This document shows, piece by piece, positions 810-24,798 of a stretch of DNA of 32,203 nt. A program made the position numbers and the translations under genes. How positions within the stretch are numbered: the stretch's first letter is position 1; every line of letters begins with the position of its first letter. Origin of the DNA: Methanobrevibacter sp. (lineage in GTDB: Archaea > Methanobacteriota > Methanobacteria > Methanobacteriales > Methanobacteriaceae); contig JAFRFB010000049.1 in assembly GCA_017434555.1 (NCBI GenBank), positions 1 to 32,203 of the forward strand. The letters are read 5' to 3'. The notes below the pieces were generated by a model. That model worked only from the letters and a program-made list of their open reading frames with translations, was not told the DNA's origin and made no database searches.

Positions 810-830
810 AGAACCCCAATGCCGAAATAA

Positions 831-1167: not shown

Positions 1168-1509
1168 TTATATTTCTTCTATGTTCATTTTATTATTGCA
1201 TTCATAGGCATAAGCTTCTTGCTCTAATATGTTATTGTTTGCTTTGAACCATTTTTTGAATATGGCTTCTGGGGAGTTATTATTTTTAAGAAACCCTGTT
1301 GATACAAAAAGAGTTATTAATATTTCATCAAAACATCTGGATTTGTAATAACCTTTAACTTTTGTCATATAGAGACTATCATATCCATTTTCGTTAAGTT
1401 GTTTAATCAATTCATCGATAATGTTTTCTATAGCTATGGGAATTAAATCATTATTCACATATTTGCAAAGGGGAATATGAAAAACATATTTTTTGTCTAA
1501 TTCTTTCAT
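1168..1509 (-). CDS. hypothetical protein, 113 aa
   Basis: I do not recognise this protein. It is a soluble, mixed alpha/beta-looking sequence with no membrane segment or signal peptide. Notable stretches are YVFHIPLCKYVNN near the N terminus, GYDSLYMTKVKGYYKSR in the middle and a FKKWFKANNNILEQEAYAYE helix-like region near the C terminus. The start ATG at 1507-1509 has a good ribosome binding site on the minus strand (GGAGC, about 5 nt upstream), which supports real expression. It is separated from the AMMECR1 gene by about 60 bases and could be cotranscribed with it. Codon usage resembles the neighbours. Confidence is for being a gene, not for any function. Confidence 0.65.
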   Translation of the reverse strand: MKELDKKYVFHIPLCKYVNNDLIPIAIENIIDELIKQLNENGYDSLYMTKVKGYYKSRCFDEILITLFVSTGFLKNNNSPEAIFKKWFKANNNILEQEAYAYECNNKMNIEEI

Positions 1510-1570
1510 ATTTTGCTCCGAAATAAATTAAACTTTTAAATGGATATCTTAAACTGTAAAAATATGGATT

Positions 1571-2128: not shown

Positions 2129-2136
2129 ATTATCAC

Positions 2137-3507
2137 CTATTTGCTTCCTCCAACCATTGCGTCATTAATTCTTGTGTGCGGTCCGCCATCTCCTACAGGT
2201 GCGGTCTGTCCGTCTTTTCCACAGAAGCCAACACTTAATTTAAAGTCATTTCCTAAAGCTTCCACATTATTCAATGTTTCTAAAATATTTCCGGATAAGG
2301 ATACATCACGCAGCGGTGTTGTCAATTCACCGTTTTCAATTTTAAATCCTTCACCTGCGTTGAATTGGAATATTCCTTTACCGGTATCCACTTGTCCTCC
2401 TCTTGAACCTTTCAGATAAATTCCGTCATGAATATCTTCTATTAACTCTTCAAATGTCATATCTCCAGGCTGTAAGTATGTATTACTCATTCTTACTATT
2501 GGTGCATCACTTATAATTGACCTTGCATTTCCTGAAGATTTCATATCAAATTTGGATGCGGTTTCTCTTGAGGATAATAATGATATTAATTCTCCATCTT
2601 TAACCAGTTGATTAGGTTTTGTTTTTACACCTTCCACATCATAAGGATAATATCCAAATCCGTCTTTAATTGTTGCATCATCAAAGATATTTACTATGTC
2701 TGAAGCTATTTTTGTGTTTAACTTATTTTTGAGAATGGAATCGTTTTGCAATATCAAATCTGCTTCAGTAGCATGTCCCAATGCTTCATGTATCATTACC
2801 CCGGTTAATTCCGGATCAGCTATTATTTTAAACTTACCTGATGGAGCATTTTCAGCTTTCAGTAATCTGTTTGCCTTATCTCCTACTTTTCTTCCGAACT
2901 CTTCAATGTCAGCATTTTTAATTAATTCAAATCCTTTTACTCCGCCAATGCTGCCGTGTCCAAACTGGATTATCTGGCCGTCTGTTGCTGTTGCATTTAA
3001 AGCCATTCTCACACGGCTTGTTTTTACCTGAATCTGTGTGCCTTCACTGTTTAGGAAGAGTTCATTAGATTCAATATCTCCATAGCCTACGGTGGTACTG
3101 TTTACTTCATCAATATTTGCACTGTCGCTGGCTTCTTTCATTATATCCTGTTTTTCTTCAATGGATACGTCTTCAAATGGTATTTTAACATCGGTAGCTA
3201 TTTTATCTTTAATGATTTCACTTTCAGCCAGTTCAACATCTCCTTTCAGGGAGTTTGAAAGTTTAAGTGCAGTTTCTGTAATTTCATCAAATTTGGATAA
3301 GTCTGTTGTGTATGCAAATCCCCATGCACCATTATTAAGTACTCTGATTCTTGCAGAGATACTCATTCCTGTGTTTATTTCATCAATTTCTCCATCTTTC
3401 ATTAATATTGATGTACTGTTTCCCTTTCCTGCTCTAATGTCTATATAGTCAACTTTGGGAATTGTTTTTTCTATAACTTTTTCGAATAAGTTAATATAGT
3501 CTTCCAT
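2137..3507 (-). CDS. tldD: TldD-type metalloprotease
   Basis: Member of the TldD/PmbA zinc peptidase family. In E. coli TldD and TldE act together to trim unfolded peptides, for example in microcin B17 maturation and CcdA degradation. The zinc-binding motif [11 protein letters not shown] is at about residues 240-250 and is the catalytic HExxxH form typical of TldD; TldE/PmbA lacks it. The C terminus with [15 protein letters not shown] is also characteristic. A TTG at 3519 would add four residues, but GTGAT at 3511-3515 on the minus strand is a ribosome binding site for the ATG at 3505-3507, which I chose, giving 456 residues. No TldE partner is in this window. It lies upstream of the AMMECR1 gene in a tight pair and diverges from the flavoprotein gene at 3621. 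Confidence 0.88.
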
Positions 3508-3620
3508 TCTATCACTCAAAATGTTAAATCATTAAATACTTTGAATTTCATAATACTTAATATTTTTATAGTAGTATGAAAAAATATAACAATTGATATA
3601 ATTTAATTTGGTGATTTTTA

Positions 3621-4826
3621 ATGGTTATTATTGTTGGTACCGGTGCCGGAGGAGCAATTATTGCTTATGAACTGGCAAAAGATAATATTCCTGTAACAAT
3701 TATTGAGAAAGGCCCCTTTATTGATTCAAAAGATGCATTCAATTACTATGATGCATACAGTGATGATGTGGACTTGCTTACAACCACATGTATTGGTGGG
3801 GCAACGATAGTTTCAATGTCCAATATGGTTCGGGCATTGGATGAGGAATTGCATGACTATGATATAGATATCTCTAAAGAATATGAGTATGTTGAGGACT
3901 TGATTAATGTACATCAATTAGATGATTCACATATCGGCAAAGGAACCCAATTGTTTTTAGATGCTGGACGTGAACTTGGATTAAACACACTCAAAATGCC
4001 AAAGGCAATAAGGGAAGAGGATTGTATTCAATGTGGTAAATGTGCCTTCGGATGTCCTGCTGATGCAAAATGGTCTGGAAAGGATTTCGTTGAAATGGCA
4101 GTTGATGTTGGAGCAACATTAATAACTGATGCTGAAGTTTGTGAAGTAATTGTTGAAGATTCAAAAGCCAAAGGAGTTAAATATATAAAAGATGGAGTTG
4201 AAAAATCCATTTTTGCAGATACTGTCGTTTTATCTGCAGGAGCTATTGGTTCAGTATTAATATTGAGAAAAACCGGAATCGATGCTGGACGAGAATTATT
4301 CTTTGATCCTTTCGTAACTGTTGGAGGATATTTAAAAGATATAAATTTCAATACTGAAGTTCAAATGGCTGGTTTGGTTATAGGAAAAAGCTTTGTTTTA
4401 TCTCCTCATTTTTCATCATTCACTATTAATAATATTGAAGATGAACAGGTTGAAAATAAGGATATCTTAAGCATTATGGTTAAAACAGCCGATGATGGAA
4501 AAGGTTATGTTGATGATGATGGTGATGTTGTAAAAATCAACACAATCCATGATATTCAAGCTTTGGCTGAAGGTGTTGCCACTGCAGGGTTTATTTTAGA
4601 AAAAGCAGGTGTAGACCCATCATCCATTGCATCAACAGTTTATAGGGGAGCCCATCCTGGAGGAACTGCACCTATAGGAAAAATTGTCGATTCTAATCAG
4701 GAAACAGAAATTAAGGGTCTCTTTGTAAGTGATGCAAGTGTCTTACCAGTATCTCCTGGAAAACCACCTATTTTAACAATACTTGCTCTATCAAAAAGGC
4801 TTTCTGATTATTTAAAAAATAAATAA
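3621..4826 (+). CDS. GMC-type FAD oxidoreductase with a 4Fe-4S motif
   Basis: A 401-residue flavoprotein. The N terminus MVIIVGTGAGGA is a Rossmann GxGxxG site for the FAD ADP moiety, with the acidic end of strand 2 at IIEKG (about 28-31). The C-terminal third has the GMC-family segment HPGGTAPIG (about 349-357) and GLFVSDASVLPVSPG, where the GMC active-site histidine region lies. Between them, CIQCGKCAFGC (Cys135, 138, 141, 145) has the spacing of a ferredoxin-type 4Fe-4S ligand set, so electrons probably pass from FAD to a cluster rather than to oxygen. The substrate is unknown; it could be an alcohol or a polyol-like group. GGTGAT precedes the ATG. It diverges from tldD and converges with pyrI, 5 nt from its stop. 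Confidence 0.8.
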   Translation: MVIIVGTGAGGAIIAYELAKDNIPVTIIEKGPFIDSKDAFNYYDAYSDDVDLLTTTCIGGATIVSMSNMVRALDEELHDYDIDISKEYEYVEDLINVHQLDDSHIGKGTQLFLDAGRELGLNTLKMPKAIREEDCIQCGKCAFGCPADAKWSGKDFVEMAVDVGATLITDAEVCEVIVEDSKAKGVKYIKDGVEKSIFADTVVLSAGAIGSVLILRKTGIDAGRELFFDPFVTVGGYLKDINFNTEVQMAGLVIGKSFVLSPHFSSFTINNIEDEQVENKDILSIMVKTADDGKGYVDDDGDVVKINTIHDIQALAEGVATAGFILEKAGVDPSSIASTVYRGAHPGGTAPIGKIVDSNQETEIKGLFVSDASVLPVSPGKPPILTILALSKRLSDYLKNK

Positions 4827-8124: not shown

Positions 8125-9066
8125 ATGAATGAAAATATGTATGATTTATTTGATGATGTTTTCATCCCTGATTTCACTATTGCCGGTGAAAATTTTAAAA
8201 AAACAATTGATTTGGGTGAATATGGTAAACTTGAAACGTATTCTTTATTTCCTGGGGTCATTTTAGCGTTCATTGATATAAATATTGAAAATTATGATGA
8301 TGTTTTTATAGAAAGCGAACTTCCTTCAAGATTATTGGAGATTAATCATTGTGCTAGCGGCAGATATGCATATACAGTCGGTGATGATAAAATAATCTAT
8401 TTTGGGAAAGGGGATTTGTGCATCAGTATTCATGAGTTGACAAAAACATTGCCTGATTTTCCTTTGGGTTTTTATAACGGTATAGAGATTTTCATTGATG
8501 TGGATGTTGCAAATGATTATATAAAAAATTATCTTCCTGATTTTGATTTAATTGACTTTTATGAAGAGTTAGAAAAATCTCATGCATATATATTGCTTAG
8601 GTCAAATGAAAAAATAGATCATGTTATCGGGGAGATATATGATGTTGATGAGAGAATTAAAAGAGATTATTTCAAATTAAAGTGTATTGAATTGTTATTG
8701 TTTTTTTCAATCACTGATTTAATACCTAATGAGGGTATTTCACTATCAAAAAAGCAAGTTGACATTGTTGAAAATGTTAAAAAAGATTTGATTCTGGATT
8801 TGGGAAGTAAAATAACTATTGATGATTTGGCAAGTAAATATGGAATCAGCAAAACCTCTTTAAAAAATTGTTTTAAGGAAGTTTATGGTAAACCTATTTT
8901 TAAATGGAGAAAGGAGTATAAACTTGATTATGCTTGTAAATTAATTAAAGAAGAAAAGTATTCTATTTCTGAAATATCAAAAATGGTTGGTTATTCATCC
9001 CCATCTAAGTTTTCCCAGGCGTTTAAGGAGTATGTGGGATGTACACCTTCCCAATACAATCAATAA
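8125..9066 (+). CDS. AraC-family transcriptional regulator
   Basis: A 313-residue regulator. The C-terminal 100 residues form the double helix-turn-helix of AraC/XylS proteins: first motif ITIDDLASKYGISKTSLKNCFK (from about 231) and second motif SISEISKMVGYSSPSKFSQ (from about 280), ending in the family hallmark FKEYVGCTPSQYN. The N-terminal 200 residues look like the sensor half found in Firmicutes regulators that precede YbtP/YbtQ-like ABC pairs. AraC proteins are common in bacteria and uncommon in archaea, so I infer transfer from a gut bacterium. Its position before the ABC/ECF genes suggests it activates them, possibly in response to the transported ligand. Confidence 0.9.
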   Translation: MNENMYDLFDDVFIPDFTIAGENFKKTIDLGEYGKLETYSLFPGVILAFIDINIENYDDVFIESELPSRLLEINHCASGRYAYTVGDDKIIYFGKGDLCISIHELTKTLPDFPLGFYNGIEIFIDVDVANDYIKNYLPDFDLIDFYEELEKSHAYILLRSNEKIDHVIGEIYDVDERIKRDYFKLKCIELLLFFSITDLIPNEGISLSKKQVDIVENVKKDLILDLGSKITIDDLASKYGISKTSLKNCFKEVYGKPIFKWRKEYKLDYACKLIKEEKYSISEISKMVGYSSPSKFSQAFKEYVGCTPSQYNQ

Positions 9067-9252: not shown

Positions 9253-9268
9253 TTTAGGTAAGCCTAAA
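9253..9268. promoter_or_regulatory. DtxR-type iron box 1
   Basis: TTTAGGTAAGCCTAAA is a 16-bp inverted repeat (TTTAGG-N4-CCTAAA) that closely matches the known DtxR/IdeR/SirR operator TTAGGTTAGCCTAA. It ends 20 bases before the start codon of the first ABC half transporter. A near-copy lies at 15634-15649. I infer iron (or manganese)-dependent repression by a DtxR-family protein encoded elsewhere. Confidence 0.7.
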
Positions 9269-9288
9269 TTTTATTTAAAGGCGATAAG

Positions 9289-11079
9289 ATGTCAGAAAGT
9301 AAAAGTAAAAATAAATTTATTAGGTTGCTTAGTTATTCTGGAAAATATAAATATCTGTCAATTTTAGGTATGATTTTTTCTGCATTAAGTGCAATTTCCT
9401 TATTAATTCCTTTTGTATACATTTGGAATGTAGTAAATGCACTTTTAACTGTAGCTCCGGAGTTTACTAAAGCACAAAATATTGAAGTTTATGCATTCAA
9501 TGCATTTTTTTATGCAATTTTAGGTATCATTCTAAATTTTGTAGGTTTGATGTGTACACATTTATCTGCATTTAGAAATGAAAGAAATATGAAAGATGCG
9601 GCTTTAAATCATTTGCTTAAGCTTCCTTTAGGTTATTTTTCAAATCATACAAGCGGAGGTTTAAGAAAAGTAATTGATTTTAGTACTGCAAAGACTGAAG
9701 GATTTTTAGCTCACCAGTTATTTGATTTAACTGGTGCGGTTGTAGCTCCAATTGCATTTTTGGTGTTGTTATTTAGTTTTGATTGGATTTTGGGATTGAT
9801 TTGTTTAATTCCAATAATATTATGTTTCTTATTTATGATTCCAATGTTTGTGGGAGAATCAAAAAATTTCATGATTGAATATCAGACATATCTGGAAAAA
9901 ATGAACGGTGAAGCTGTAGAATATATTAGGGGAATTCCTGTTACAAAAGCATTCCAGCAAAGTGTTTATTCTTATAAAAACTTTTTATTGGCAATTAAAA
10001 ATTATGCAAAGTTTTCAGCGGAATATGCATTTTCTACCCAGCTTCCAATGACTTCATTTACTGTATCAATCAATGGATTTTTCGCTTTATTGATTCCCGC
10101 AGGAATACTGCTTGCAGGATCTGTTGTTGATATAAAATTCTTATCAAATTTCCTATTTTACGTGATATTTACTCCAATCTGTGCGGTAATGATGAATAAA
10201 ATCATGATGGTTTCACAGGACTGGATGCTTGCAAGCAATGCACTTGATAACATTGAAGCTATCTTAAATGAAAAGCCATTAGCAGAACCAACTAATCCTC
10301 AAAAGCCTAAAAATCATTCTATTGAATTTGAAGGAGTCTATTTTGATTATGATGAATCTGAAAATGATGAACATATTCTAAATGATGTTAATTTAAAGAT
10401 TAATGAAAATGACTCTGTTGCATTGGTTGGTCCGTCAGGTGGTGGAAAAACCACAATCGCTTCTTTAATTCCAAGGTTTTGGGATGTTGGTGAAGGTTCT
10501 ATCAAATTAGGTGATGTTGATGTTCGTGATATTTCAACTAAGGAATTGATGGAAAATATTTCCTTTGTATTCCAAAATACTACTTTATTTAAAGATTCCA
10601 TTTTCAATAATGTAGCTATTGGTCGTAAAGGTGCTTCTAGAAGTGAGGTTTTAAATGCACTTGATTTGGCTCAATGTGGTGATATAATTGATGAATTGCC
10701 GGACGGAATCGATACGGTTATTGGATCTGAAGGTACATACCTATCCGGTGGTCAGCAACAAAGAATCGCACTTGCAAGAGCAATATTAAAAGATGCTCCA
10801 ATAATCATTTTGGATGAAGCAACGGCACTGGCTGATCCTGAAAATGAATACTTAATTCAAAAAGCCATTTCTGAAATTACTAAAAATAAGACTGTTATTA
10901 TGATTGCACATAGATTGTCGACGGTTAGAAATGTAGATAAAATTTATGTCGTTGACAATGGCAGAATCGTTGAGGAAGGAAATCATGATGTGCTGGTTGA
11001 AAAAGATGGACTTTACTCAAGAATGTGGGATGAATTCAATCAGTCTATCCAATGGAAAGTTAAAAGCGAGGCGATATAA
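9289..11079 (+). CDS. ABC half transporter, YbtP/IrtA-like
   Basis: A 596-residue half transporter with six membrane helices (about residues 15-330) fused to a C-terminal ATPase. The membrane part carries EYIRGIPVTKAFQQSVYS, a signature of the YbtP/YbtQ/IrtA/IrtB subgroup, which structurally resembles exporters but imports iron-siderophores. The ATPase has Walker A GPSGGGKTT (381-389), signature LSGGQQQR, Walker B IIILDEAT and the H-loop IAHRLST. It probably pairs with the next gene, whose ATG overlaps its stop by one base. A DtxR-type box precedes it. Substrate is inferred only: heme, a siderophore or another iron complex. Confidence 0.85.
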   Translation: MSESKSKNKFIRLLSYSGKYKYLSILGMIFSALSAISLLIPFVYIWNVVNALLTVAPEFTKAQNIEVYAFNAFFYAILGIILNFVGLMCTHLSAFRNERNMKDAALNHLLKLPLGYFSNHTSGGLRKVIDFSTAKTEGFLAHQLFDLTGAVVAPIAFLVLLFSFDWILGLICLIPIILCFLFMIPMFVGESKNFMIEYQTYLEKMNGEAVEYIRGIPVTKAFQQSVYSYKNFLLAIKNYAKFSAEYAFSTQLPMTSFTVSINGFFALLIPAGILLAGSVVDIKFLSNFLFYVIFTPICAVMMNKIMMVSQDWMLASNALDNIEAILNEKPLAEPTNPQKPKNHSIEFEGVYFDYDESENDEHILNDVNLKINENDSVALVGPSGGGKTTIASLIPRFWDVGEGSIKLGDVDVRDISTKELMENISFVFQNTTLFKDSIFNNVAIGRKGASRSEVLNALDLAQCGDIIDELPDGIDTVIGSEGTYLSGGQQQRIALARAILKDAPIIILDEATALADPENEYLIQKAISEITKNKTVIMIAHRLSTVRNVDKIYVVDNGRIVEEGNHDVLVEKDGLYSRMWDEFNQSIQWKVKSEAI

Positions 11080-12824
11080 TGTTATCTGAGTATTTTACAA
11101 AAAGATTTGGCCTTACAAAAGAGGGTTCAGATAATTTAGTTAAAGGAATTATTTATACGGCACTTCAAAATCTTTCGTTTATGTTTCCTATTGGACTTTA
11201 TGCACTTTTACTGTATATCTGGTTATCTACCTTAACCGGAGGAGAAATTATTGATCCTAATTTGGGAATTTTTATAGTGTTGATATTGATAGTTCTTGGA
11301 ATAATATTTGTATTTTCATGGAAACAGTATCATTTCGTATATAATACTACCTATGGGGAAAGTGAAAAGAGAAGGATTAACTTAGGCGAAAATTTAAGAA
11401 AGCTTCCATTGTCATTTTTTGAAAACAGGGATTTGGCCGATTTGACTTCAACAATCATGAATGACTGCACTGATTTGGAACATGTCTTTTCACATGCAGT
11501 TCCACAATTATTGGGTTCAATCATCTCATTAATTCTTGCGGCAATTGGTTTGTTCATTTTTGATTGGAGACTGGCCCTTGCACTTTTATGGGTAGTTCCT
11601 GTTGCTTTTGTAATATTATATTTCACAAGAATATGGATTCATAAAGGTGGAGAACTTGTAATGGGTGATTTGCTTGAATGCGGAGATTCAATGCAGGAAT
11701 GTATTGAATCAGTAAGGGATTTAAAATCATATAATTATGAAAATGAGTATTTATCTAGATTAAATGCTTCAACTAAAAAAATTGAACGATCAAGGATTAA
11801 AGCTGAGCTCATGACCGCTTCAGGAGTAATCACTGGAAACATGGTTTTAAAATTAGGAATAGTTTCTGTAATATTATTAGGGTCTTATTTGATAATGAAT
11901 TCCCAAATAAACATATTTACATTTCTGATTTTCTTAATAGCATCAGCAACAATATATGCTCCAGTTGAAAATGGATTAATGTTTTTATCTGAAATATTCA
12001 TGATGGATATTAAAGTTGAAAGAACAAAAGAAATAGAATCTTTAGTGATTGAAGGTGGTTTAACCGATTATTCATTAGATGGTTATGATGTTGAATTTGA
12101 TGATGTCAATTTTAATTACGATGATTTAAAAGATGTTTTAACAGACATTAACTTTACAGCCAAACAGGGAGAAGTAACTGCACTTGTCGGACCATCTGGT
12201 GGAGGTAAATCCACAGTTTCAAAACTCGCTGCCCGATTTTGGGATCCTGTAAGTGGAAAAGTTTCACTTGGCGGACAGGACTTGTCTGAGTTGGATTCTG
12301 AAAAACTTTTGGAAAACTTCTCAATAGTCTTTCAGGATGTAATTTTATTCAATAATACAATCATGGAAAATATTCGTGTTGGAAGAAAAGACGCAACGGA
12401 TGAGGAAGTAATCAACGCTGCTAGATTGGCAGAATGTGATGAATTCGTTGAAAAGCTTCCTGAGGGTTACAATACTGTCATCGGTGAAAATGGTGAATTA
12501 TTGTCTGGCGGTCAAAGGCAGAGGATTTCTATTGCACGAGCATTGCTCAAGGATGCAAATGTGATTCTTTTGGATGAAGCGACTTCATTTTTGGATGTTG
12601 AAAATGAGTCTAAAATACAAAAAGCGTTATCTCAATTGATTAAAAATAAAACCGTTATTATTATCGCTCACAGAATGCGTACAATAGCCAATGCAGATAA
12701 AATAGTTGTTTTGGATGATGGTAAAATTTCTGAGCAAGGTTCACCGGACGAATTACTGGCTAATGACGGTTTATTCAAGAAGATGGTCGACTTACAGAAT
12801 TTGAGTGGTGAGTGGAAAATTTAG
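11079..12824 (+). CDS. ABC half transporter, YbtQ/IrtB-like
   Basis: A 581-residue partner half transporter with an N-terminal six-helix domain (about 25-310) and a C-terminal ATPase: Walker A GPSGGGKST (371-379), signature LSGGQRQR, Walker B VILLDEATS and the H-loop IAHRMRT. The segment ECIESVRDLKSYNYEN corresponds to the EYIRGIPVTKAF region of the first half. The start ATG overlaps the preceding TAA, with GAGGCGAT just upstream, so the two halves should be made in equal amounts as a heterodimer. A hairpin at 12826-12844 follows the stop. Confidence 0.85.
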   Translation: MLSEYFTKRFGLTKEGSDNLVKGIIYTALQNLSFMFPIGLYALLLYIWLSTLTGGEIIDPNLGIFIVLILIVLGIIFVFSWKQYHFVYNTTYGESEKRRINLGENLRKLPLSFFENRDLADLTSTIMNDCTDLEHVFSHAVPQLLGSIISLILAAIGLFIFDWRLALALLWVVPVAFVILYFTRIWIHKGGELVMGDLLECGDSMQECIESVRDLKSYNYENEYLSRLNASTKKIERSRIKAELMTASGVITGNMVLKLGIVSVILLGSYLIMNSQINIFTFLIFLIASATIYAPVENGLMFLSEIFMMDIKVERTKEIESLVIEGGLTDYSLDGYDVEFDDVNFNYDDLKDVLTDINFTAKQGEVTALVGPSGGGKSTVSKLAARFWDPVSGKVSLGGQDLSELDSEKLLENFSIVFQDVILFNNTIMENIRVGRKDATDEEVINAARLAECDEFVEKLPEGYNTVIGENGELLSGGQRQRISIARALLKDANVILLDEATSFLDVENESKIQKALSQLIKNKTVIIIAHRMRTIANADKIVVLDDGKISEQGSPDELLANDGLFKKMVDLQNLSGEWKI

Positions 12825-12825
12825 T

Positions 12826-12844
12826 TGGGAAATTATTTTTCCCA
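12826..12844 (+). terminator. hairpin between the ABC pair and ECF genes
   Basis: TGGGAAA and TTTCCCA form a perfect 7-bp stem around a 5-nt loop, starting one base after the stop of the second ABC gene. The bases after it are only moderately T-rich, so it may reduce rather than end transcription into the ECF genes, or protect the upstream mRNA. Confidence 0.45.
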
Positions 12845-12889
12845 TATTATTCTCATTAATATGATAAAAAAATGAAGGAGGAAGATTTA

Positions 12890-13471
12890 ATGAGTGAAAG
12901 ATTTGCTGTAAAAGATTTAATCACTGTCGGTATATTTTCAGTGATAATGATTGTTTTAATATTTGCTTTTGGAATGTTGGGATATATTCCAATATTAATG
13001 ATAGGATTGCCTATTATAGCTGCGTTGATTTGTGGAATTCCATTTATGCTCTTTTTAACAAGAGTAAACAAATTTGGAATGGTAACTTTAATGGGTTTGA
13101 TTTTAGGAATTGTGATGTTTTTGTCAGGCCATACTTGGATACCAATCGTTGTTTTCACATTATGTGCATTAATTGCAGACATAATATTAAAAATGGGCGA
13201 TTATTCTTCTGTTAAAAATTCCATAATTGCGCATGGTGTTTTTATTTTAGGAGTATTTGGTAACATGTTGCCATTTTTCATATTGAGGGATTATTTCCTT
13301 GGTGCTATTGCTGAATCAATGGGAAATGACTATGTAAATGTTATTTCACCATTTTTAACATATGAATGTTTGATTGTACTGGTTATTTTAACTTTCATTG
13401 TTGGATGTATCAGTGCATATGTTGGAAAATTAGTTTTGAAAAAACATTTTGAAAAAGCAGGGATAGCCTAA
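12890..13471 (+). CDS. ECF transporter S component, Trep_Strep/MptD type
   Basis: A 193-residue membrane protein with about six helices. KFGMVTLMGLILGIVMFLSG with the following SGHTW, then LCALIADIILKMGDY and LPFFILRDYF, matches the Trep_Strep (TIGR02185, MptD-type) S-component pattern as I remember it. S components bind the substrate and work with a T component and ATPases. Members of this family were linked to heme uptake in Lactobacillus sakei and neighbouring work on ECF heme transporters. I chose the ATG at 12890 because GGAGG lies about 7 nt before it; an earlier in-frame ATG at 12872 would put the ribosome binding site inside the gene. Next come the T and A components. Confidence 0.82.
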   Translation: MSERFAVKDLITVGIFSVIMIVLIFAFGMLGYIPILMIGLPIIAALICGIPFMLFLTRVNKFGMVTLMGLILGIVMFLSGHTWIPIVVFTLCALIADIILKMGDYSSVKNSIIAHGVFILGVFGNMLPFFILRDYFLGAIAESMGNDYVNVISPFLTYECLIVLVILTFIVGCISAYVGKLVLKKHFEKAGIA

Positions 13472-13480
13472 AGTGATAAT

Positions 13481-14206
13481 ATGGAATTAGGACTTGATAA
13501 TCAGTTTAAAATTGATCCAAGAACAAAAATTATTCTTCTTGTAATAATAAGTTTCATGGTGTTTAATGAAGCACCATTGTATGTTAGTGGAATTTTAGTC
13601 TTAGTTCCATTTATTTGCTTATTTTTTTCTGATTACAAAAAAGCAGCTATAATTTATATTTTTTTATATGTGATTGCAAGGTATATTCAGATTTATCTGC
13701 TGCCAAATACAACAGGAATTGTATCAATACTTTTGGTGACTTTTAGCTACACTGCTTCAAGAATGCTACCTATCTTTGTCATGGGATACTATACAATCAC
13801 TTCAACAAAAGTAAGTGAATTTATAGCTTCTATGGAAAAAAGCAATGTTCCAAAAGAGATTATTATTCCTATTTCAGTTATTTTCAGGTATATTCCTTCA
13901 GTTTATGAAGAAATCAAGTCCATTACTAATGCAATGAAAATGAGGGGATTTGGATTTACAACCAAATCATTAAAATCTCCTTTAAAGCTGATTGAGTTTT
14001 ATATGGTTCCGATTCTAATTAGTGCTGTTAAAACAAGTGATGAATTATCTGCAGCTTCCCTAACAAGAGGTTTAAGCAATCCTGAAAAAAGAACCCATTT
14101 GATTGATGCTGAATTCAATAAATGGGATTATATTTTATTAATTGTTTCAATCATTGGTTTGGGCATATATTCATATTACTTTATTGGAGGTGTTGTTCTT
14201 GCTTAA
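13481..14206 (+). CDS. ECF transporter T component
   Basis: A 241-residue EcfT-like transmembrane protein. It has membrane helices in the first 110 residues and again near 170-185 and 215-240, and the two coupling motifs that touch the ATPases: MRG at 154-156 (in AMKMRGFGF) and TRG at 195-197 (in ASLTRGLSN). It joins the S component to the energising ATPase. The gene starts 9 nt after the S component stop and overlaps the ATPase gene if that begins at TTG 14199. Only weak complementarity to the rRNA lies before its ATG. Confidence 0.85.
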   Translation: MELGLDNQFKIDPRTKIILLVIISFMVFNEAPLYVSGILVLVPFICLFFSDYKKAAIIYIFLYVIARYIQIYLLPNTTGIVSILLVTFSYTASRMLPIFVMGYYTITSTKVSEFIASMEKSNVPKEIIIPISVIFRYIPSVYEEIKSITNAMKMRGFGFTTKSLKSPLKLIEFYMVPILISAVKTSDELSAASLTRGLSNPEKRTHLIDAEFNKWDYILLIVSIIGLGIYSYYFIGGVVLA

Positions 14207-15632
14207 TATGGATAATGTTTCATTTTCTTATGCTGAAGATGAAAATTTAGCTGATGTTAATTTAAATATTAAGAAAGGCGAAGTTATATTGCTATGTGGT
14301 GAATCCGGATGTGGAAAAACAACACTGACACGTTTTTTAAATGGCCTTATTCCAAATTTCTTTGATGGAAAAAGACAAGGTGAAGTTTATTTGGATAATA
14401 AAGCCATTAGTGAAATGCCAATATATGAAATATCAAAATATGTTGGATCTGTTTTTCAAAATCCAAAAACTCAGTTTTTCAATGTTGATACAACAAGTGA
14501 AATAACATTCGGATGTGAAAATTTAGCAGTTGAAAAATCCGAGATTGAAACTAGGTTAGAAAAAGTTGTAAATGACTTTAAAATAACACATTTACTTGAT
14601 AAAAATATTTTTAAAATATCTGGTGGTGAAAAGCAAAAAATTGCTTGTGCATCAATATCTGCAGTTTTTCCAGAAATATTTGTTTTGGATGAACCTTCTT
14701 CTAATTTGGATTCCAAATCAAGCTGGGAATTTGAGCAGATAATAAAAAAATGGAAATCTCAAGGTAAAACTGTGATTATTGCAGAACATAAATTATTCTT
14801 TTTAAAAGATGTCGTTGATAGAGTGATATTTATAAAAAATGGAAAAATCACATATGATTGGCATATTTCTGAATTTAAAAAATTAAATCATAGAGATTTA
14901 GGTTTAAGACAACTTGACTTGGATAATTTAACTGCTAAGAGAACAGATTATTATTCTAATAATGATGATTTTTTAGAACTCAAAAATTTCAATTTCAAAT
15001 ATAAAAAAGTACCTGCTCTGGATATTAATAATGTAAAAATTCCAAAAAATGAAATTATTGCAATAATTGGAAAGAATGGTGCTGGAAAATCAACGTTTGC
15101 AAATTGTTTGTGCGGTCTTAAAAGGTCATTTAAAGGTGAAGTCATCTTCGATAATCAAAGATTAAAAAGAAAAGACATGCTTAAAAAGACATATATGGTA
15201 ATGCAAGATGTCAATCACCAATTATTCACTGAAAGTGTGCTGGATGAGGTATTATTGAGTATGGATGAAGAAAATATGGATTTGGCTGAAAATATTTTAA
15301 TTAATTTGAATTTAATTCATCTAAAAGATAAACATCCTATGGCATTATCTGGCGGTGAAAAACAAAGGGTGGCTATAGCATCAGCAATAGCTTCTAAAAA
15401 AGAAATATTGATTTTTGATGAGCCTACAAGCGGTTTGGATTTAAAAAATATGATGAAAGTTTCTGAAAACTTAATTCATCTTCAAAAGTTGGGAATCACT
15501 TCTTTTATCATAACCCATGATTTTGAATTAATTATGGAAGCCTGTTCTCATGTTTTACATTTTGAAGATGGCAAAATAATTGATAATTATAAGGTCGATG
15601 AAGAAAAACTGAAAAAGTTTTTCTTAGAATAA
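14199..15632 (+). CDS. ECF transporter ATPase, two fused ATP-binding domains
   Basis: A 477-residue protein containing two ABC ATPase domains in one chain, replacing separate EcfA1 and EcfA2. Domain 1 has Walker A GESGCGKTT (34-42), signature ISGGEKQK and Walker B FVLDEPSS. Domain 2 has Walker A GKNGAGKST (291-299), signature LSGGEKQR and Walker B LIFDEPTSGLD. The start is uncertain: GGAGGTG at 14186-14192 is well spaced for TTG at 14199 and rather far from ATG at 14208. TTG would give an 8-nt overlap with the T component gene. A further upstream ATG at 14142 is unlikely because it lies deep inside that gene. Confidence 0.9.
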   Translation: MLNMDNVSFSYAEDENLADVNLNIKKGEVILLCGESGCGKTTLTRFLNGLIPNFFDGKRQGEVYLDNKAISEMPIYEISKYVGSVFQNPKTQFFNVDTTSEITFGCENLAVEKSEIETRLEKVVNDFKITHLLDKNIFKISGGEKQKIACASISAVFPEIFVLDEPSSNLDSKSSWEFEQIIKKWKSQGKTVIIAEHKLFFLKDVVDRVIFIKNGKITYDWHISEFKKLNHRDLGLRQLDLDNLTAKRTDYYSNNDDFLELKNFNFKYKKVPALDINNVKIPKNEIIAIIGKNGAGKSTFANCLCGLKRSFKGEVIFDNQRLKRKDMLKKTYMVMQDVNHQLFTESVLDEVLLSMDEENMDLAENILINLNLIHLKDKHPMALSGGEKQRVAIASAIASKKEILIFDEPTSGLDLKNMMKVSENLIHLQKLGITSFIITHDFELIMEACSHVLHFEDGKIIDNYKVDEEKLKKFFLE

Positions 15633-15649: not shown

Positions 15650-15659
15650 TTTTATATAT
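15650..15659 (+). promoter_or_regulatory. TATA box of the LolD/FtsX operon
   Basis: TTTTATATAT lies immediately after iron box 2. Transcription would start near 15680, leaving about 35 nt before the ATG at 15714, which is preceded by GGGAGA at 15701-15706. Confidence 0.6.
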
Positions 15660-16422: not shown

Positions 16423-18693
16423 ATGCTTTCAAAAAAGATGTTAAGAGACATCGCGAAGCATAAAACACAGTTTTTATCTATTTTTTTAATGGCATTTTTA
16501 GGTGTGTTTGTCTTTGCCGGTGTCGGCGGTGAGTCAGTAGGTTTGGAAGTTAATGTAAACGAGTATTATAATGCTACAAATTTGGCTGACGGCTGGATTT
16601 ATTCAGCAAACCTTGATGATAATTTTGTAGATGAAGTGAATAATTTAAGTCCAACAAAGGACAGTGAAAGGCAGCTGGTCATCGATTCGGTGGGTGATTT
16701 TTCAAATGATCCCGAAATAACCCTTCATTTTCTTGAGAAAAACAATATTTCCACTTTTTATTTGATTGAAGGTGAAGATTTCAATATAAGTGATGGGGAT
16801 GGAGTATGGCTTGACAAGGAATTTGCCGATGCAAAAGACTTAAAAGTCGGAGACAATATTTCATTTGATTTCAACGGTGTTACAATAGAAAAAGAAATCA
16901 AAGGTTTGGGATATTCTCCGGAATATGTCTATCATGCTTCTGATGCTTCAGTAATTCCTGATTTCAGCAAAATGGGTTTTGCTTATTTGTCTCATGAAGC
17001 ATTTCCTTTAAGTGATGTTCCATATAATGTATTGTTGGTTGATTTTAATGGAAATGCAAGCGAATATGGGGATTTGCTTTCAGATAAATTGGATGGAAAG
17101 TATAATTCATTCATTGAACAGTCAGAGCATGTCAGCGTATCTCAGTTTTCAGAAGAGATGGATCAGCACAAAATGATGGGAGATATTTTCCCTGTTGTAT
17201 TCATATTAATAGCATTATTGATTCTTTTGACTACAATGTCTCGTATCATTTCCCATCAAAGGACACAAATAGGTATTTTAAAAGCTGTCGGATATAAAAA
17301 TCGGACAATAATGTTTCACTACATTTCCTATGGATTATGGCTGGTTCTAGTCGGATCAATTTTAGGTTTAATTATAGGGCCGTTAACCTTGCCTCAATTA
17401 TTCTATCCGTCAATGAGCTCAACATACATTCTGCCTGAATGGAAACCTGCATGGAGCATGACATTTATCTATGTTGCTCTAGCTATGATATTGATGTCAG
17501 TTGTCGTTTCCTATTTTGCTGTTAGAAGCATATCAAAAGAAAATCCTGCAGACACAATAAGGCCAAAAGCTCCTAAAGTTTCAACTTCAGGTTTTGTTGA
17601 AAAATTTGGATTTTGGAAAAAATTCGGATTCAATATTCGCTGGAACTATCGTGATGCTAAAAGAAATAAATTCCGTGCATTAATGACAATTGTAGGTGTT
17701 ATTGGATGTACCGCACTTTTGGTATCAGCATTCGGTATGTATGATGGCATGAACGATTTAAAGGAATGGGAATATAATCAAATCAACCATTATGATTCTA
17801 AACTTGTCATTGACGATGAAGCAAGCTTGTCTGAAATCAATGAAGTTGCCGATGAAGTCAAAGGGGATAAATTAATGGAAAGTGCAATCGAAATAGAATC
17901 GGGCAATTCTAAAAAATCGGCTTCACTTTTAGTGCTGAACGATACTGATTTGGTTACACCTACAGATTATGATTGGAATAAGATTGACATAGCTAATGAT
18001 GAGGTTTCAATTTCACAGAAAATGGCTGATTTGTTGGGTGTTGGTGTTGGAGATACTGTTAAATGGCATATTATGGGTTCAGACAAATGGATTAATACAA
18101 CAATTGACAAGATTCATGCAGATCCGATTTCACAAGGATTCATAATGTCCAGCGATAAGTTGGAAGACTTGGACTTAAATTACACCCCAACAAGCATTGT
18201 AACGGCTGAACATGTTGATAAAAATTACTCTGCAATTAAATCATCCAGTTCAATGAAAGACATGACTGCAAGTTGGGATGAATTGACCGAGTCAATGTGG
18301 CTATTGATTTATATATTGATATTCTTTGCAAGTTTATTGGCTGTTGTAGTGCTTTATAATCTAGGGTTATTGTCATTTACAGAAATTGAACGTGAAATAG
18401 CAACATTGAAAGTATTGGGTTTCAAAACTGGTGCTTTAAGAAAGCTGTTATTAACACAGAACCTATGGTTTACAGCCATTGGATTCATATTGGGTATTCC
18501 TGTTGGTTATTATATCTTGAAAATAATGTGGGAATCTTCAGGGGATTCATTTTACATATTGCCTTCAATATCAATTACCAATTTAGCTTTAACGGCAATA
18601 ATAACATTTTTCCTATCAATACTAGTAAACTTGATGTTTTCAAGAAAAATCAAAAGCTTAGATATGGTTGAATCACTAAAAGGTAATGAATAA
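16423..18693 (+). CDS. FtsX-like ABC permease, copy 1
   Basis: A 756-residue permease with an N-terminal membrane helix (about 15-35), a large external domain (about 36-250), three helices of a first FtsX domain (about 253-370), a further helix near 425, a second external domain (about 450-620) and a second FtsX domain (about 628-745). The motifs THxxQIGILKAVGYKN-like (HQRTQIGILKAVGYKN) and EIEREIATLKVLGFKTG mark the two FtsX cytoplasmic loops. It begins 4 nt after the ATPase stop. It is closely similar along its full length to the next permease, so the pair is a tandem duplication. Confidence 0.88.
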   Translation: MLSKKMLRDIAKHKTQFLSIFLMAFLGVFVFAGVGGESVGLEVNVNEYYNATNLADGWIYSANLDDNFVDEVNNLSPTKDSERQLVIDSVGDFSNDPEITLHFLEKNNISTFYLIEGEDFNISDGDGVWLDKEFADAKDLKVGDNISFDFNGVTIEKEIKGLGYSPEYVYHASDASVIPDFSKMGFAYLSHEAFPLSDVPYNVLLVDFNGNASEYGDLLSDKLDGKYNSFIEQSEHVSVSQFSEEMDQHKMMGDIFPVVFILIALLILLTTMSRIISHQRTQIGILKAVGYKNRTIMFHYISYGLWLVLVGSILGLIIGPLTLPQLFYPSMSSTYILPEWKPAWSMTFIYVALAMILMSVVVSYFAVRSISKENPADTIRPKAPKVSTSGFVEKFGFWKKFGFNIRWNYRDAKRNKFRALMTIVGVIGCTALLVSAFGMYDGMNDLKEWEYNQINHYDSKLVIDDEASLSEINEVADEVKGDKLMESAIEIESGNSKKSASLLVLNDTDLVTPTDYDWNKIDIANDEVSISQKMADLLGVGVGDTVKWHIMGSDKWINTTIDKIHADPISQGFIMSSDKLEDLDLNYTPTSIVTAEHVDKNYSAIKSSSSMKDMTASWDELTESMWLLIYILIFFASLLAVVVLYNLGLLSFTEIEREIATLKVLGFKTGALRKLLLTQNLWFTAIGFILGIPVGYYILKIMWESSGDSFYILPSISITNLALTAIITFFLSILVNLMFSRKIKSLDMVESLKGNE

Positions 18694-18696
18694 TTA

Positions 18697-18733
18697 TCTT
18701 TTAGTCTTTTCTTTTTTTTACTAATATTTAAAT
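18697..18733 (+). promoter_or_regulatory. T-rich terminator followed by a TATA box
   Basis: The T-rich run 18697-18719 after the first permease fits an archaeal oligo-U terminator. It is followed by ATATTTAAAT (18725-18733), centred 29 nt before the ATG at 18758, with no ribosome binding site between. The second permease therefore seems to have its own leaderless promoter. Confidence 0.5.
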
Positions 18734-18757
18734 CTTATTTTTTTCTTATATTATATT

Positions 18758-21019
18758 ATGTCATTATTTAAAAAGATGCTTAGGGACATTAAAGTTAATA
18801 AGACACAATTTATTTCTATATTTTTAATGGCCTTTATAGGCATTTTTGCATTTTGTGGAGTTTGTAGTGAGTATTACGGTTTGGAACAAACCAGTAGTGA
18901 GTTTTATTCAGACACTAATCTTGCCGATGGCTGGATTTATAATACCACAATCACTGATGGGGCAATAGACGAAATAAAAAATTTCACAACTGATTATGAA
19001 AAGCAGATGGTGGTTCAATCAGTTGGTAATTTTTCAAATGACCCCGAGATTACTCTGCATTTTGTAGAGGATAATGAAATATCTAAATTTTATACAACGG
19101 AAGGTGAAGATTTCAATTCATCTGATGATTCAGGTGTTTGGCTTGATAAAAGATTTGCCGATGCCTGGAACTTGACCGTTGGAGACAATATCACATTCAA
19201 ATTCAATGGATTAACTTTAGAAAAAGAAATTAAAGGTATAGGTTATTCTCCGGAATATGTTTATGAGGCTTCACCAACATCAATCATCCCTAATTTTAAG
19301 GATATGGGTTTTGCTTATTTATCTAATGAATCATTTCCTTTAAGTGATATCCCATATAACGTGTTGCTGGTTAAGTTCAATCAAAGTCCTGATGATTTTA
19401 AGGATTCTTTGGATGATTCTGTTGAATATCTCTCATATACTCAACAGTCAGATCACGTGAGTGTATCACAGTTCAATGAGGAAATGGCTCAGCATAAGAT
19501 GATTGGAGATGTATTTCCTATTGTATTCATTCTAGTTACTTTTTTAACATTATTGACAACAATGACTCGTATTGTTACTCATCAAAGAACCCAGATTGGT
19601 GTTTTAAAGGCAGTGGGATATAAAAATAGGACTATCATTTTGCATTTCATGTCTTATGGGTTTTGGTTGGTTCTGGCAGGTGCAGTTTTAGGTCTAATTT
19701 CAGGTCCGGCGATTATTCCTGATTTGTTTTATCCGACAATGACTTCCAGATATTCGCTTCCCGAATGGAATCCTGGTTTCGATATCAGTTTTGTTGTTGT
19801 GGCAGCTGCCATGGTAATATCTTCACTTTTGGTCAGCTATATTGCAGCCAGAAATATTTCAAAGGAAAATCCCGCAAATACCATGAGGCCAAAAGCTCCA
19901 AACATGTCTTCTTCAGGATTTTTGGAAAATTCAAAATTATGGACTAAACTAAATTTCAATCTTCGCTGGAATTATCGTGATGCTAAAAGGAATAACTTCA
20001 GGGCATTAATGGCAATAGTTGGTGTTATGGGTTGTGTTGCTCTTTTAATTTCTGCTTTCGGTATGAATGATTCAATGGAGAATTTAAAAACTTGGGAATA
20101 TGACGACATTTCTCATTTTGATTCAAAGTTAATCATCAAAAGCGGTGCTTCACTTTCAGATATTGATGATGTCCGTGAAGAAGTAAATGGTAGTACCATT
20201 ATGGAGCAAGCTATTGAAATAAAGGCTCAAGGAAATGAAAAGACGGCATCACTTCTTACATTAAATAACACGAATTTGATATCTCAGACAGATAAAAATA
20301 AAAATCCAATAAATTTGTCTGATACAGATATATCACTTTCAGCAAAAACAGCAGAAAGTCTAAATGTTGGTGTAGGTGATACTGTAGAATGGCATATCAT
20401 AGGTTATGATGATTGGGTGAAATGTAAAATAACAAACATTCATGGAGAACCTTTGTCTCAGGGAATAATTCTATCATCAGATAAGCTGGAAGATTTGGGC
20501 TTAAATTTCACTCCAACCAGTATAATTACCACAGAACATGTTGATGATGATTACGATTCAATAAAAAGTGTTTCTACATTAAATCAAATGGTAAGCAATT
20601 GGAATGAGATGATAGGCTCTGTCATGATGATGGTTTCAATTCTAATATTTTTTGCTGTACTTTTAGCTATTGTTGTGCTATACAATTTGGGAATATTGTC
20701 ATTTACAGAAATTGAGCGTGAAGTAGCTACTTTAAAAGTATTGGGCTTTAAAACTGCAGATTTAAGAAAGCTGTTATTGACACAAAACCTGTTTTTTACA
20801 GCAATCGGATTTATTTTGGGAATTCCTCTAGGTTTTTATTTAATGACATTAATGTTGAATGCCGCAGGTGAATCACTATATTATATTCCTTCATTAACTT
20901 TGGGAAATATATTGTTAAGCGGTTTTATAACTTTTGTCGTTTCAATTGTCGTTAACTTATTATTTTCAAGTAAAATTAAGAACTTAAACATGGTTGAAGC
21001 CCTTAAGGATGTTGAATAA
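18758..21019 (+). CDS. FtsX-like ABC permease, copy 2
   Basis: A 753-residue paralogue of the preceding permease with the same layout: helix 16-36, external domain, FtsX domain with HQRTQIGVLKAVGYKN, helix, second external domain and second FtsX domain with EIEREVATLKVLGFKT. By eye well over half the residues are identical; the FtsX loops are most conserved and the external domains, which face the ligand, least. It has no ATPase of its own nearby, so it probably shares the one at 15714. It appears to be transcribed from its own leaderless promoter, without an iron box, so it may be made when the first copy is repressed. Confidence 0.88.
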   Translation: MSLFKKMLRDIKVNKTQFISIFLMAFIGIFAFCGVCSEYYGLEQTSSEFYSDTNLADGWIYNTTITDGAIDEIKNFTTDYEKQMVVQSVGNFSNDPEITLHFVEDNEISKFYTTEGEDFNSSDDSGVWLDKRFADAWNLTVGDNITFKFNGLTLEKEIKGIGYSPEYVYEASPTSIIPNFKDMGFAYLSNESFPLSDIPYNVLLVKFNQSPDDFKDSLDDSVEYLSYTQQSDHVSVSQFNEEMAQHKMIGDVFPIVFILVTFLTLLTTMTRIVTHQRTQIGVLKAVGYKNRTIILHFMSYGFWLVLAGAVLGLISGPAIIPDLFYPTMTSRYSLPEWNPGFDISFVVVAAAMVISSLLVSYIAARNISKENPANTMRPKAPNMSSSGFLENSKLWTKLNFNLRWNYRDAKRNNFRALMAIVGVMGCVALLISAFGMNDSMENLKTWEYDDISHFDSKLIIKSGASLSDIDDVREEVNGSTIMEQAIEIKAQGNEKTASLLTLNNTNLISQTDKNKNPINLSDTDISLSAKTAESLNVGVGDTVEWHIIGYDDWVKCKITNIHGEPLSQGIILSSDKLEDLGLNFTPTSIITTEHVDDDYDSIKSVSTLNQMVSNWNEMIGSVMMMVSILIFFAVLLAIVVLYNLGILSFTEIEREVATLKVLGFKTADLRKLLLTQNLFFTAIGFILGIPLGFYLMTLMLNAAGESLYYIPSLTLGNILLSGFITFVVSIVVNLLFSSKIKNLNMVEALKDVE

Positions 21020-21860: not shown

Positions 21861-21904
21861 AAACATTATAAAATATGAAATAGATATAATTTAATGTGAT
21901 TAAA

Positions 21905-22282
21905 ATGTCAGAAAATAATAATCTTGAAAATAACAATGATGATATGTGTGAGGTATTCAACTCTCATGAGGATGTCATTGAACGTGTACAAGCACGTATG
22001 ATTGAAGAAGAGCAATATTCTGAATTAGCTGAGTTCTTTAAAATATTTGGAAATCCTACAAGATTAAAAATACTTTCATTACTTGCTGTTGAAGATTTAT
22101 GTGTTTGTGATATTTGTGATACATTAAATTTAAATCAAACTACTGTTTCAAATCAATTAAGAATATTAAGAGCAAATAATATTGTTAAATATCAAAAAGA
22201 AGGTAAAATGGCCAGATATTCCCTTACAGACCTTCACATTGAAATGATATATAAAATAGGTTTGGAACATATTTTAGAATAA
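21905..22282 (+). CDS. ArsR/SmtB-family zinc-type repressor
   Basis: A 125-residue metal sensor. The winged helix core reads FKIFGNPTRLKILSLL, then the recognition helix QTTVSNQLRILRANNIV. Both classic metal sites are visible: DLCVCDIC (alpha3, about 64-71) with an N-terminal cysteine (MCEV) suggests a thiolate site, and the C-terminal DLHIEMIYKIGLEHILE gives Asp109, His111, His122 and Glu125, the exact DxHx10HxxE alpha5 zinc site of SmtB/CzrA. It should repress its operon and release DNA when Zn(II) or Cd(II) binds. GTG at 21896 is part of the ribosome binding site, so I start at ATG 21905. The ATPase gene begins 17 nt later. Confidence 0.9.
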   Translation: MSENNNLENNNDDMCEVFNSHEDVIERVQARMIEEEQYSELAEFFKIFGNPTRLKILSLLAVEDLCVCDICDTLNLNQTTVSNQLRILRANNIVKYQKEGKMARYSLTDLHIEMIYKIGLEHILE

Positions 22283-22299
22283 ATTTAATGGTGTTTTAA

Positions 22300-24798
22300 A
22301 TGAAAGAAAATAAGTGTTATGAACCGGATTGTGATGAAGAAGAATGTCACAATCCTGAGCATTTCAATTTCATTTGTTTTGATCCTGATTGTGAAGAAAT
22401 TCCCTGTGAAAATAGAAATCACTTTGATAAGCAATTATTAAAAGATTTTCAGGAAAATACTGATTTAAGTGTTTATGATCACAGAGAAGAAATAGATTAT
22501 GATGAAGATGTTGATATAAGTATTTGTGGCTGTCCTGATTGTGCAGACGATGATGAGCATGACCACGATCACGACCATGGGCACTCTCACAGTCATGATG
22601 AGCATGGGCATCATCATGATGAAACGGATTCTTGTAGTGATGATGATTGTGGGTGTCATGATGAGCATGGCCACGACCATGAACATGGGCATCATCATGG
22701 ACATGAACATTCTCACTCTCATGAAGTGGATTCTTGTAGTGATGATGATTGCGATTGTCATGACCACGATCATGAAGAAAAAGATACATGTTCAGACCCA
22801 GATTGCGGCTGCCATGACCACGACCATGATGATGTTGATATAAGCATTTGTGGCTGTCCGGATTGTGCAGACGATGATGATGGCGATGAAGAAGAAGAGT
22901 TAATTGCTGAAGGTAAACCTTTAATATCAAACAGACCTATTCAAATCATCGTAGTGAGCGGTATTTTATTTGCTGCAGGCCATATCTTAGAATACCTATC
23001 ATTCAGTCCAACATTAGTAACACTTATTTTCATGATTGGCGCATTGATTGCAGGTTATGAAATAGCTATTTTAGCATATAAATCTTTAGTCAAAAGGCAC
23101 ACAGTCGGTCCGGCAATGCTCATGTGTATTGCTTGTGTTGCTTCATTTATCATAGGACACCCTGAAGAAGGTGCAGCAGTAACATTCCTGTATTATATTG
23201 CAGAATTCCTGGAGGATTATGCTGAACACAGAGCTAAACGTTCAATCAAGTCATTAGTTGAAATCGCTCCTGAAACCGCTAGAGTTAAAGTTGGGGAATC
23301 AGAGGAGTTAAGAAATGTTGATGATGTTAATATTGGTGAAATTGTAATTGTAAAACCGGGAGATAAGGTTCCTTTGGACGGTCATGTTATTTCCGGTTCT
23401 TCATCAATCAATCAGGCTTCAATCACTGGAGAAAGTGTGCCTGTTCTTAAGGAAGTCGGTGATGAAGTATTTTCAGGTACTGTTAATGAAGACGGTTATC
23501 TGGAAATTGTTGTTACCAAAAAGGCAAAAGATTCAGTCATTTCAAAAATCGTTACATTGGTTAAAAGATCACAGCTCAACAGGTCTGAAACAGAATCTTT
23601 AGTTGAAAAAGTGGCTAAGTATTATACTCCAGTCATGATGGTTGCCGCAGCATGCGTTGCATTCATACCTCCATTGTTATTTGGTCAGAACTTTGTTGAT
23701 TGGGTTTATAAGGCACTTTCACTTCTGGTAATTTCATGTCCTTGCGCATTCTTAATTTCAACACCTGTCGGGATGGTATCAGCAATTACTTCCGCTACAA
23801 GAAATGGTGTAATCATTAAGGGAAGTACCTATGTTGAAGAAATGAAAGACGTTAAAGCAGTTATCTTTGACAAGACAGGTACATTAACTGAAGGTAAATT
23901 GGAATTAAGTGAAGTGAAATTATTGAATGAAAACTGCTCAAAAGAGGATATTATAAAAATTGCATCATCCCTTGAACATCAGTCTTCACACCCTATTGCA
24001 CAGGCCATTGTAAACTATGCTACAATGAATGACATCGAATTTGAAGAAATTGAAGACTTTAAAAATATTCCGGGTAAAGGAATTGTCGGATTTATTGGTG
24101 GCGAGCAATATTATGCTGCTAATGAATCATTAATTGAAGGCAGTTTATTCAATATATCTCATGATGAGATAAATAAATATTCTGCTGAAGGAAAAACTGT
24201 TGTATTCATTGGTAATTCAAAAGAAGTCTTAGCTATTATTACAGTAGCTGATAAAATAAGAGATAATGCTTCTGAAGTAATCGCTGATTTAAATAAACAG
24301 GGTGTAAAAACAGTAATGTTGACTGGAGACAACAAAATTGCCGCCCACAAAGTTGCAGAAGAAATTGGAATAGAATATGTTTATTCCAATTTGCTTCCAG
24401 AAGACAAGTTAAACATTTTGGATATAATTAGAAATAAATTTGGTGATGTGGCCATGGTTGGTGACGGTATAAATGATGCACCTGCTTTAGCAAGAGCAAA
24501 TATTGGTATTGCTATGGGTGCAGCAGGATCTGACGTTGCCATTGAAACAGCTGACGTTGCATTAATGCAGGATGATATTTCCAAATTACCTTATCTTTTC
24601 TCTTTAAGCCGCAAGACAATGACAATCATTAAACAGAATATTACTGTTGCCATTGCGGTTAAACTGTTATGTGTAGTGCTGGCTATTTTGGGAATTATCA
24701 CATTGATGATGTCTGTCGGTTTTGGAGACTTGGGACTAACCCTATTGGTTATATTAAATTCATTTAGAATTGGAATGGTGAAAGATCCACTATTCTAA
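22300..24798 (+). CDS. P1B-type Zn/Cd-exporting ATPase with His/Cys-rich N terminus
   Basis: An 832-residue heavy-metal pump. Residues 1-200 form an unusual metal-binding extension: two 20-residue repeats CxxPDCxxxxCxNxxHF (6-22 and 26-42), two copies of DISICGCPDCADDD (72-85 and 180-193), and three DxCSDxDCxCHD repeats set in His/Asp-rich tracts (87-176). The pump follows: helices from about 213, the A-domain TGES, the membrane metal motif SCPCA (about 479-483), phosphorylation site DKTGTLT (Asp524), HP motif SSHPIA, and hinge GDGINDAP (from 721). It should export Zn(II), Cd(II) or similar ions. There is no HMA domain. GGTG precedes the ATG; the repressor gene is 17 nt upstream. Confidence 0.93.
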   Translation: MKENKCYEPDCDEEECHNPEHFNFICFDPDCEEIPCENRNHFDKQLLKDFQENTDLSVYDHREEIDYDEDVDISICGCPDCADDDEHDHDHDHGHSHSHDEHGHHHDETDSCSDDDCGCHDEHGHDHEHGHHHGHEHSHSHEVDSCSDDDCDCHDHDHEEKDTCSDPDCGCHDHDHDDVDISICGCPDCADDDDGDEEEELIAEGKPLISNRPIQIIVVSGILFAAGHILEYLSFSPTLVTLIFMIGALIAGYEIAILAYKSLVKRHTVGPAMLMCIACVASFIIGHPEEGAAVTFLYYIAEFLEDYAEHRAKRSIKSLVEIAPETARVKVGESEELRNVDDVNIGEIVIVKPGDKVPLDGHVISGSSSINQASITGESVPVLKEVGDEVFSGTVNEDGYLEIVVTKKAKDSVISKIVTLVKRSQLNRSETESLVEKVAKYYTPVMMVAAACVAFIPPLLFGQNFVDWVYKALSLLVISCPCAFLISTPVGMVSAITSATRNGVIIKGSTYVEEMKDVKAVIFDKTGTLTEGKLELSEVKLLNENCSKEDIIKIASSLEHQSSHPIAQAIVNYATMNDIEFEEIEDFKNIPGKGIVGFIGGEQYYAANESLIEGSLFNISHDEINKYSAEGKTVVFIGNSKEVLAIITVADKIRDNASEVIADLNKQGVKTVMLTGDNKIAAHKVAEEIGIEYVYSNLLPEDKLNILDIIRNKFGDVAMVGDGINDAPALARANIGIAMGAAGSDVAIETADVALMQDDISKLPYLFSLSRKTMTIIKQNITVAIAVKLLCVVLAILGIITLMMSVGFGDLGLTLLVILNSFRIGMVKDPLF

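Follow-up and report, generated by a model that had tools for sequence, protein, structure and literature searches.

Two paralogous type VII-like ABC permeases of Methanobrevibacter: one behind an iron box, one behind its own conserved core promoter, and plausibly one ATPase for both

We analysed a 32,203-nt stretch of Methanobrevibacter sp. DNA (the window), which is contig C67 in full, from a Methanobrevibacter-type genome of 3.15 Mb (labelled G000). At its centre an ABC ATPase gene is followed, all on the plus strand, by two genes for paralogous FtsX permeases, here called p1 and p2 (Table 1). The ATPase has a short leader and a GGGAGA ribosome-binding site at 15700, and p1 starts 4 nt past the ATPase stop codon; an iron box and a TATA box precede this pair. 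For comparison, we read 40 loci of relatives and then 20 more; several of the metagenome-assembled genomes involved are 75–90% complete, so absences in them are soft.

Table 1 Features of the window around the ATPase and the two permeases.
Feature	Position	Strand	Remark
AraC/HTH_18 regulator	8125-9066	+	adjoins boxed importer cassette
Heterodimeric exporter-fold ABC pair	9289, 11079	+	
ECF transporter	12890 (S component), 13481 (CbiQ-like), 14209 (double ATPase)	+	
Iron box TTAGGTATGCCTAA	15635-15648		exact match to IdeR/DtxR half-site consensus TTAGGNNNNCCTAA; kept 5' of ATPase in relatives
TATA box TTTATATA of ATPase-p1 operon	15651-15658	+	immediately 3' of iron box
LolD/MacB-type ABC ATPase, 234 aa	15714-16418	+	ATG 15714; Pfam ABC_tran
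Permease p1, 756 aa	16423-18693	+	8 transmembrane helices, two external domains, two FtsX domains; iron-box operon
p1-p2 spacer, 64 nt	18694-18757	+	T8 tract, TATA, AT-rich run to ATG; predicted p2 leaderless promoter
T8 tract	18712-18719		ahead of p2 TATA box
TATA box TTTAAATC of p2	18727-18734		-31 to -24 relative to p2 ATG
Permease p2, 753 aa	18758-21019	+	p1 paralogue; own predicted promoter, without iron box
ArsR-type regulator, then P-type metal ATPase	21896-24798	+	downstream of p2

The two permeases aligned end to end at 62% identity with 4 gap positions, and each carried two PF02687 (FtsX) domains above the cut-off, in agreement with an earlier sequence-only reading of this DNA that had called them alike along their whole length. 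That reading also held that the external domains differ most; domain by domain, the second external domain (ECD2) was 52.7% identical, but the first (ECD1, 64.6%) was on par with the two FtsX domains (63.8% and 65.2%), so that only ECD2 is clearly more divergent in the window pair and the general rule fails. Hydropathy placed eight transmembrane (TM) segments in each protein, with a link at ~381–415 that is not hydrophobic. AlphaFold models (pLDDT 85.7 for p1 and 83.5 for p2) likewise had eight TM helices, two external domains (at ~41–250 and 443–624 in p1) and two short helices in coupling positions (280–289 and 656–664 in p1). Foldseek returned YbbAP as the top match for both permeases, over almost the full length of each protein (E = 8.6e-23 for p1 and 7.4e-21 for p2), followed by BceB, LolE and MacB.

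The type VII layout, with an external domain after TM1 and a coupling helix between TM2 and TM3, was present in the models and the Foldseek matches, and the adjacent gene supplies a cognate ATPase of the LolD/MacB type. By sequence and predicted fold, the locus thus appears to be a type VII (YbbAP/MacB/LolCDE-like) ABC system of Methanobacteriaceae. Membership in the LolCE, MacB or ADOP families was rejected, as scores fell far under the cut-offs: the two permeases reached 46.5 and 52.1 bits with the ADOP duplicated-permease model (TIGR03434, cut-off 622) and 34.1 and 28.6 bits with LolCE (TIGR02212, cut-off 362). For the ATPase, the closest NCBIfam model was LolD at 221 bits, under its equivalog cut-off of 308.

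YbbAP-TesA is an E. coli type VII ABC system (PDB 9GE6/9GE7) in which one permease works with two ATPases, and for which a role in pulling hydrophobic compounds out of the membrane has been proposed (PMC12646458). Its permease, the best fold match for p1 and p2, is like them a single, internally duplicated chain that bears a pair of external domains and a pair of coupling helices, although identity is just 12–14% and YbbP has an extra TM pair linking its halves that p1 and p2 lack. No TesA-like hydrolase adjoining p1 or p2 was recognised among the window genes scanned, and YbbAP is not described as an iron-regulated paralogue pair (PMC12646458). LolCDE, MacB and HrtBA share the FtsX-type transmembrane core and a LolD-like ATPase; however, their permeases are half-size and dimerise, whereas p1 and p2 each join two such units in one chain. 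Judging from the models, each permease is probably a single-chain pseudodimer, as YbbP is, and on this analogy each should be a complete transmembrane unit, with p1/p2 heterodimers not required. The choice between homodimers and heterodimers raised by the sequence-only reading is therefore probably moot, and we dropped it. The analogy also points to extraction or mechanotransmission and away from import. To our knowledge, archaeal type VII ABC machines are functionally uncharacterised.

For a single IdeR dimer, the proposed consensus is the 14-bp TTAGGNNNNCCTAA (PMC8464063). Within the window it occurs exactly at 15635 and 9254 only, every other 14-mer being at least 2 bases off, and across the genome the box pattern occurred 23 times versus 8 for a reversed control. 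Three copies precede FeoB in this genome, and further boxes head an FeGP-cofactor gene, a glutathione-peroxidase-like gene and transporters. The genome encodes one DtxR-family protein (Fe_dep_repr_C at 96.7 bits); features of an IdeR/DtxR regulon are thus matched by an operator at the promoter and a candidate cognate repressor gene, and Fe-dependent repressor binding and derepression would be expected at the 15635 box. The DtxR family also includes manganese sensors, and with a single predicted member in this genome the box might instead respond to manganese (MntR-like) or to metals in general, the split between the permeases then being set by another metal. We regard this as improbable: the box heads FeoB here and FeoB-FeoA operons in relatives, it heads a YbtPQ/Eqb-like importer cassette in the window, and it is identical to the IdeR half-site consensus.

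Upstream of p2, no ribosome-binding site was seen in the spacer sequence, and this absence and the spacing of the TATA box fit a leaderless message. A TATA box lay at −34 to −27 of p2 in 39 of 42 genomes (shuffled mean 8.7, maximum 17), which rules out a chance TATA in AT-rich DNA; TTC at −15 to −13 and a ATATTATATC-like end were also conserved. No iron box (≤2 mismatches) was found within 100 nt 5' of p2 in any of the 42 genomes. These results bear out the earlier placement of only the first permease in the iron-box operon, and the claim that p2 has its own TATA box and leaderless start; the T-rich terminator claimed alongside is present in the window as the T8 tract but is not kept across relatives, and a conserved T-tract terminator was ruled out.

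The spacer also bears on whether p1 and p2 are effectively one operon, in which read-through from the iron promoter would make both iron-repressed and the p2 promoter would only top up. The genes lie on the same strand 64 nt apart, and gaps of 64–72 nt recur in several relatives, as such an arrangement would have it; yet across relatives the gap runs from 64 nt up to 3.7 kb, several with intervening genes, p2 sits on a separate contig in four genomes, and the p2 core promoter remains conserved, which makes a single operon unlikely. Between p1 and p2 in many relatives (L047, L051, L052 and others) we observed a conserved 73-aa ORF (MVEVTAESKYMDLLNEYPLLKTDLVKKN...) with its own TATA-like element; this ORF is not present between p1 and p2 in the window.

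A relative of p1 was found at E ≤ 0.001 in 64 of 67 congeneric genomes. In a tree of 103 permeases, p2 (43 rows) and a third type, p3 (10 rows), formed clades at 100% support and p1 (41 rows) a 99% clade that also holds four diverged copies; p1, p2 and p3 are distinct clades. The iron box stood 5' of 37 of 43 p1-adjacent ATPases, and 4 of the other 6 sit in a box-FeoB-FeoA operon. The anatomy was regular: in the loci read, the box end lay a median of 61 nt upstream of the ATPase start, 32 of 39 boxed loci had a TATA-like hexamer starting 2–4 nt past the box, and p1 followed ~5 nt behind the ATPase. Where an ATPase directly preceded p2, the box was absent in 7 of 8 cases; the difference between 37/43 and 1/8 boxed gave a Fisher p of ~1e-4, shared ancestry not corrected for. 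Four genomes (G015, G036, G040 and G053) have p2 on another contig and ATPase-p1 at the end of an operon that opens with two boxes and continues through FeoB, FeoA, small ORFs and a P-type ATPase; the ORFs were read in G015, G036 and G053, and G040 agrees with them in the spacing between boxes and P-type ATPase. In G036, G040 and G053 the ATPase before p2 is box-free, as is the one directly before p2 in G025, G031, G038 and G046.

The p3 gene lies 1–3 nt behind p1 in the iron operon of 10 genomes (L049, L050, L052, L058-L062, L065, L084), and the same p1-p3 order was seen in L163, on a contig ending inside p1.

In other Methanobacteriaceae genera, most loci consist of one permease with a boxed ATPase (L178, L181, L184, L185, L189, L203-L206, L208, L211-L215; a few entries are one contig counted twice). 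Iron control thus looks ancestral and p2 derived, and p2 appears to have escaped it. A p1-derived group that includes Methanosphaera copies is also without a box, indicating that box loss happened more than once.

We then considered whether both permeases run on the same ATPase. Some 19 genomes that carry both p1 and p2 have a single ATPase of this family (E ≤ 1e-70), among them G008, where p1, p2 and the sole family ATPase lie on one 2.27 Mb contig. ATPase copies beside p1 or p2 orthologues are 81–94% identical to the window ATPase, those directly before p2 being 82–88% relatives of it. The predicted coupling-helix regions (p1 274–296 and 652–676) contain 0 fixed p1/p2 differences, with 36 over the whole protein; as only ~2 would be expected for that length, this lends weak support. 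These observations make it plausible that one ATPase serves p1 and p2, and they argue against p2 working with another ATPase, or independently of any, and not with the one at 15714. That alternative, which we hold to be unlikely, draws on several loci that have p2 without an adjacent ATPase and on a further ATPase of the window's genome. The latter belongs to a second ATPase-permease pair on contig C35 (L046, oriented 802–3787), which is 66%/49% identical to the window pair and lacks an iron box. A p2-specific ATPase lineage was rejected, as p2-linked ATPases form no clade of their own in a tree most of whose branches are poorly resolved.

We put a probability of roughly two in three on the whole explanation: an ancestral iron-repressed ATPase-permease pair, joined by a diverged second permease outside iron control that shares its motor. 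An Fe2+-loaded DtxR/IdeR-type repressor probably occupies the box beside the TATA box, keeping the ATPase and p1 off when iron is plentiful, and iron shortage would open the operon; p2 would be expressed from a core promoter of its own, as a leaderless message, whatever the iron level. Each permease, as a single-chain pseudodimer, would recruit two copies of the same ATPase via near-identical coupling helices, and probably acts through its own external-domain pair to extract or push a substrate of the membrane or envelope, rather than as a classical importer.

Several points weigh against this explanation. The shared ATPase is itself boxed, so that p2 activity in iron-rich cells would depend on basal or other ATPase, and under strict repression p2 would there be without a motor. 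The C35 pair leaves exclusivity of the ATPase unestablished in the window's genome; the box might be read by a different DtxR-type metal sensor, such as one for manganese; and p1-to-p2 read-through across the 64-nt spacer is possible in this species. In G027 (L104, 6529–9551), the sole boxed case among the eight, an ATPase directly precedes a p2-type gene and no p1 was found, possibly the product of a p1/p2 deletion fusion. The difficulty of the boxed ATPase would be eased by leaky repression, by p2 mattering mainly at falling iron, or by another ATPase stepping in, and the box-free ATPases beside a lone p2 would fit a need for ATPase in iron-rich cells. The sequence-only proposal of one ATPase for two permeases used under different iron states thus gains from the separate predicted transcription units, the p1-only box and their genus-wide conservation, and is tempered by the boxed ATPase and the second ATPase in the genome.

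More tentatively, the arrangement could be a genus-wide isoform switch, in which iron supply determines the dominant single-chain permease on a shared ATPase that is itself produced chiefly under low iron. Constitutive p2 would then be held in reserve, acquiring a motor as iron drops and entering into competition with p1 and, in genomes that have it, p3. A conserved iron-linked type VII ABC system with two or three interchangeable permeases would offer an entry to the iron response of gut and rumen methanogens, and a case of paralogues parting via promoter change while probably retaining one shared motor. Full-text searches turned up no paper on FtsX permeases in Methanobrevibacter, nor on ABC-transporter transcriptomics of the genus under iron limitation. 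By gene arrangement, the locus can be likened to the Campylobacter P19/FTR1 iron-uptake locus 1649-1656, which also has two ABC permeases and one ATPase (PMC6083913); there, however, both permeases share a locus with FTR1, P19 and thioredoxins, whereas here one permease has its own predicted promoter.

The second exact box, at 9254, lies 5' of the ABC pair and an MptD-type ECF transporter (9254–15632). This boxed cassette is probably a metallophore importer, and it occupies the same site in only some relatives. The equibactin genes eqbH-L, with the DtxR-like EqbA, show DtxR-type control and the same ABC gene kinds as the cassette at 9289–15632, but no FtsX permease is described in that locus (PMC3672683) and the window has no NRPS. 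The archaeal AraC/HTH_18 regulator is kept together with the boxed cassette in several relatives, and the ArsR regulator and P-type metal ATPase downstream of p2 are retained in many. Elsewhere in the window's genome, the iron box before the FeGP-cofactor (Hmd) biosynthesis gene (L120, contig C91) hints that iron status may affect the making of the Fe-hydrogenase cofactor.

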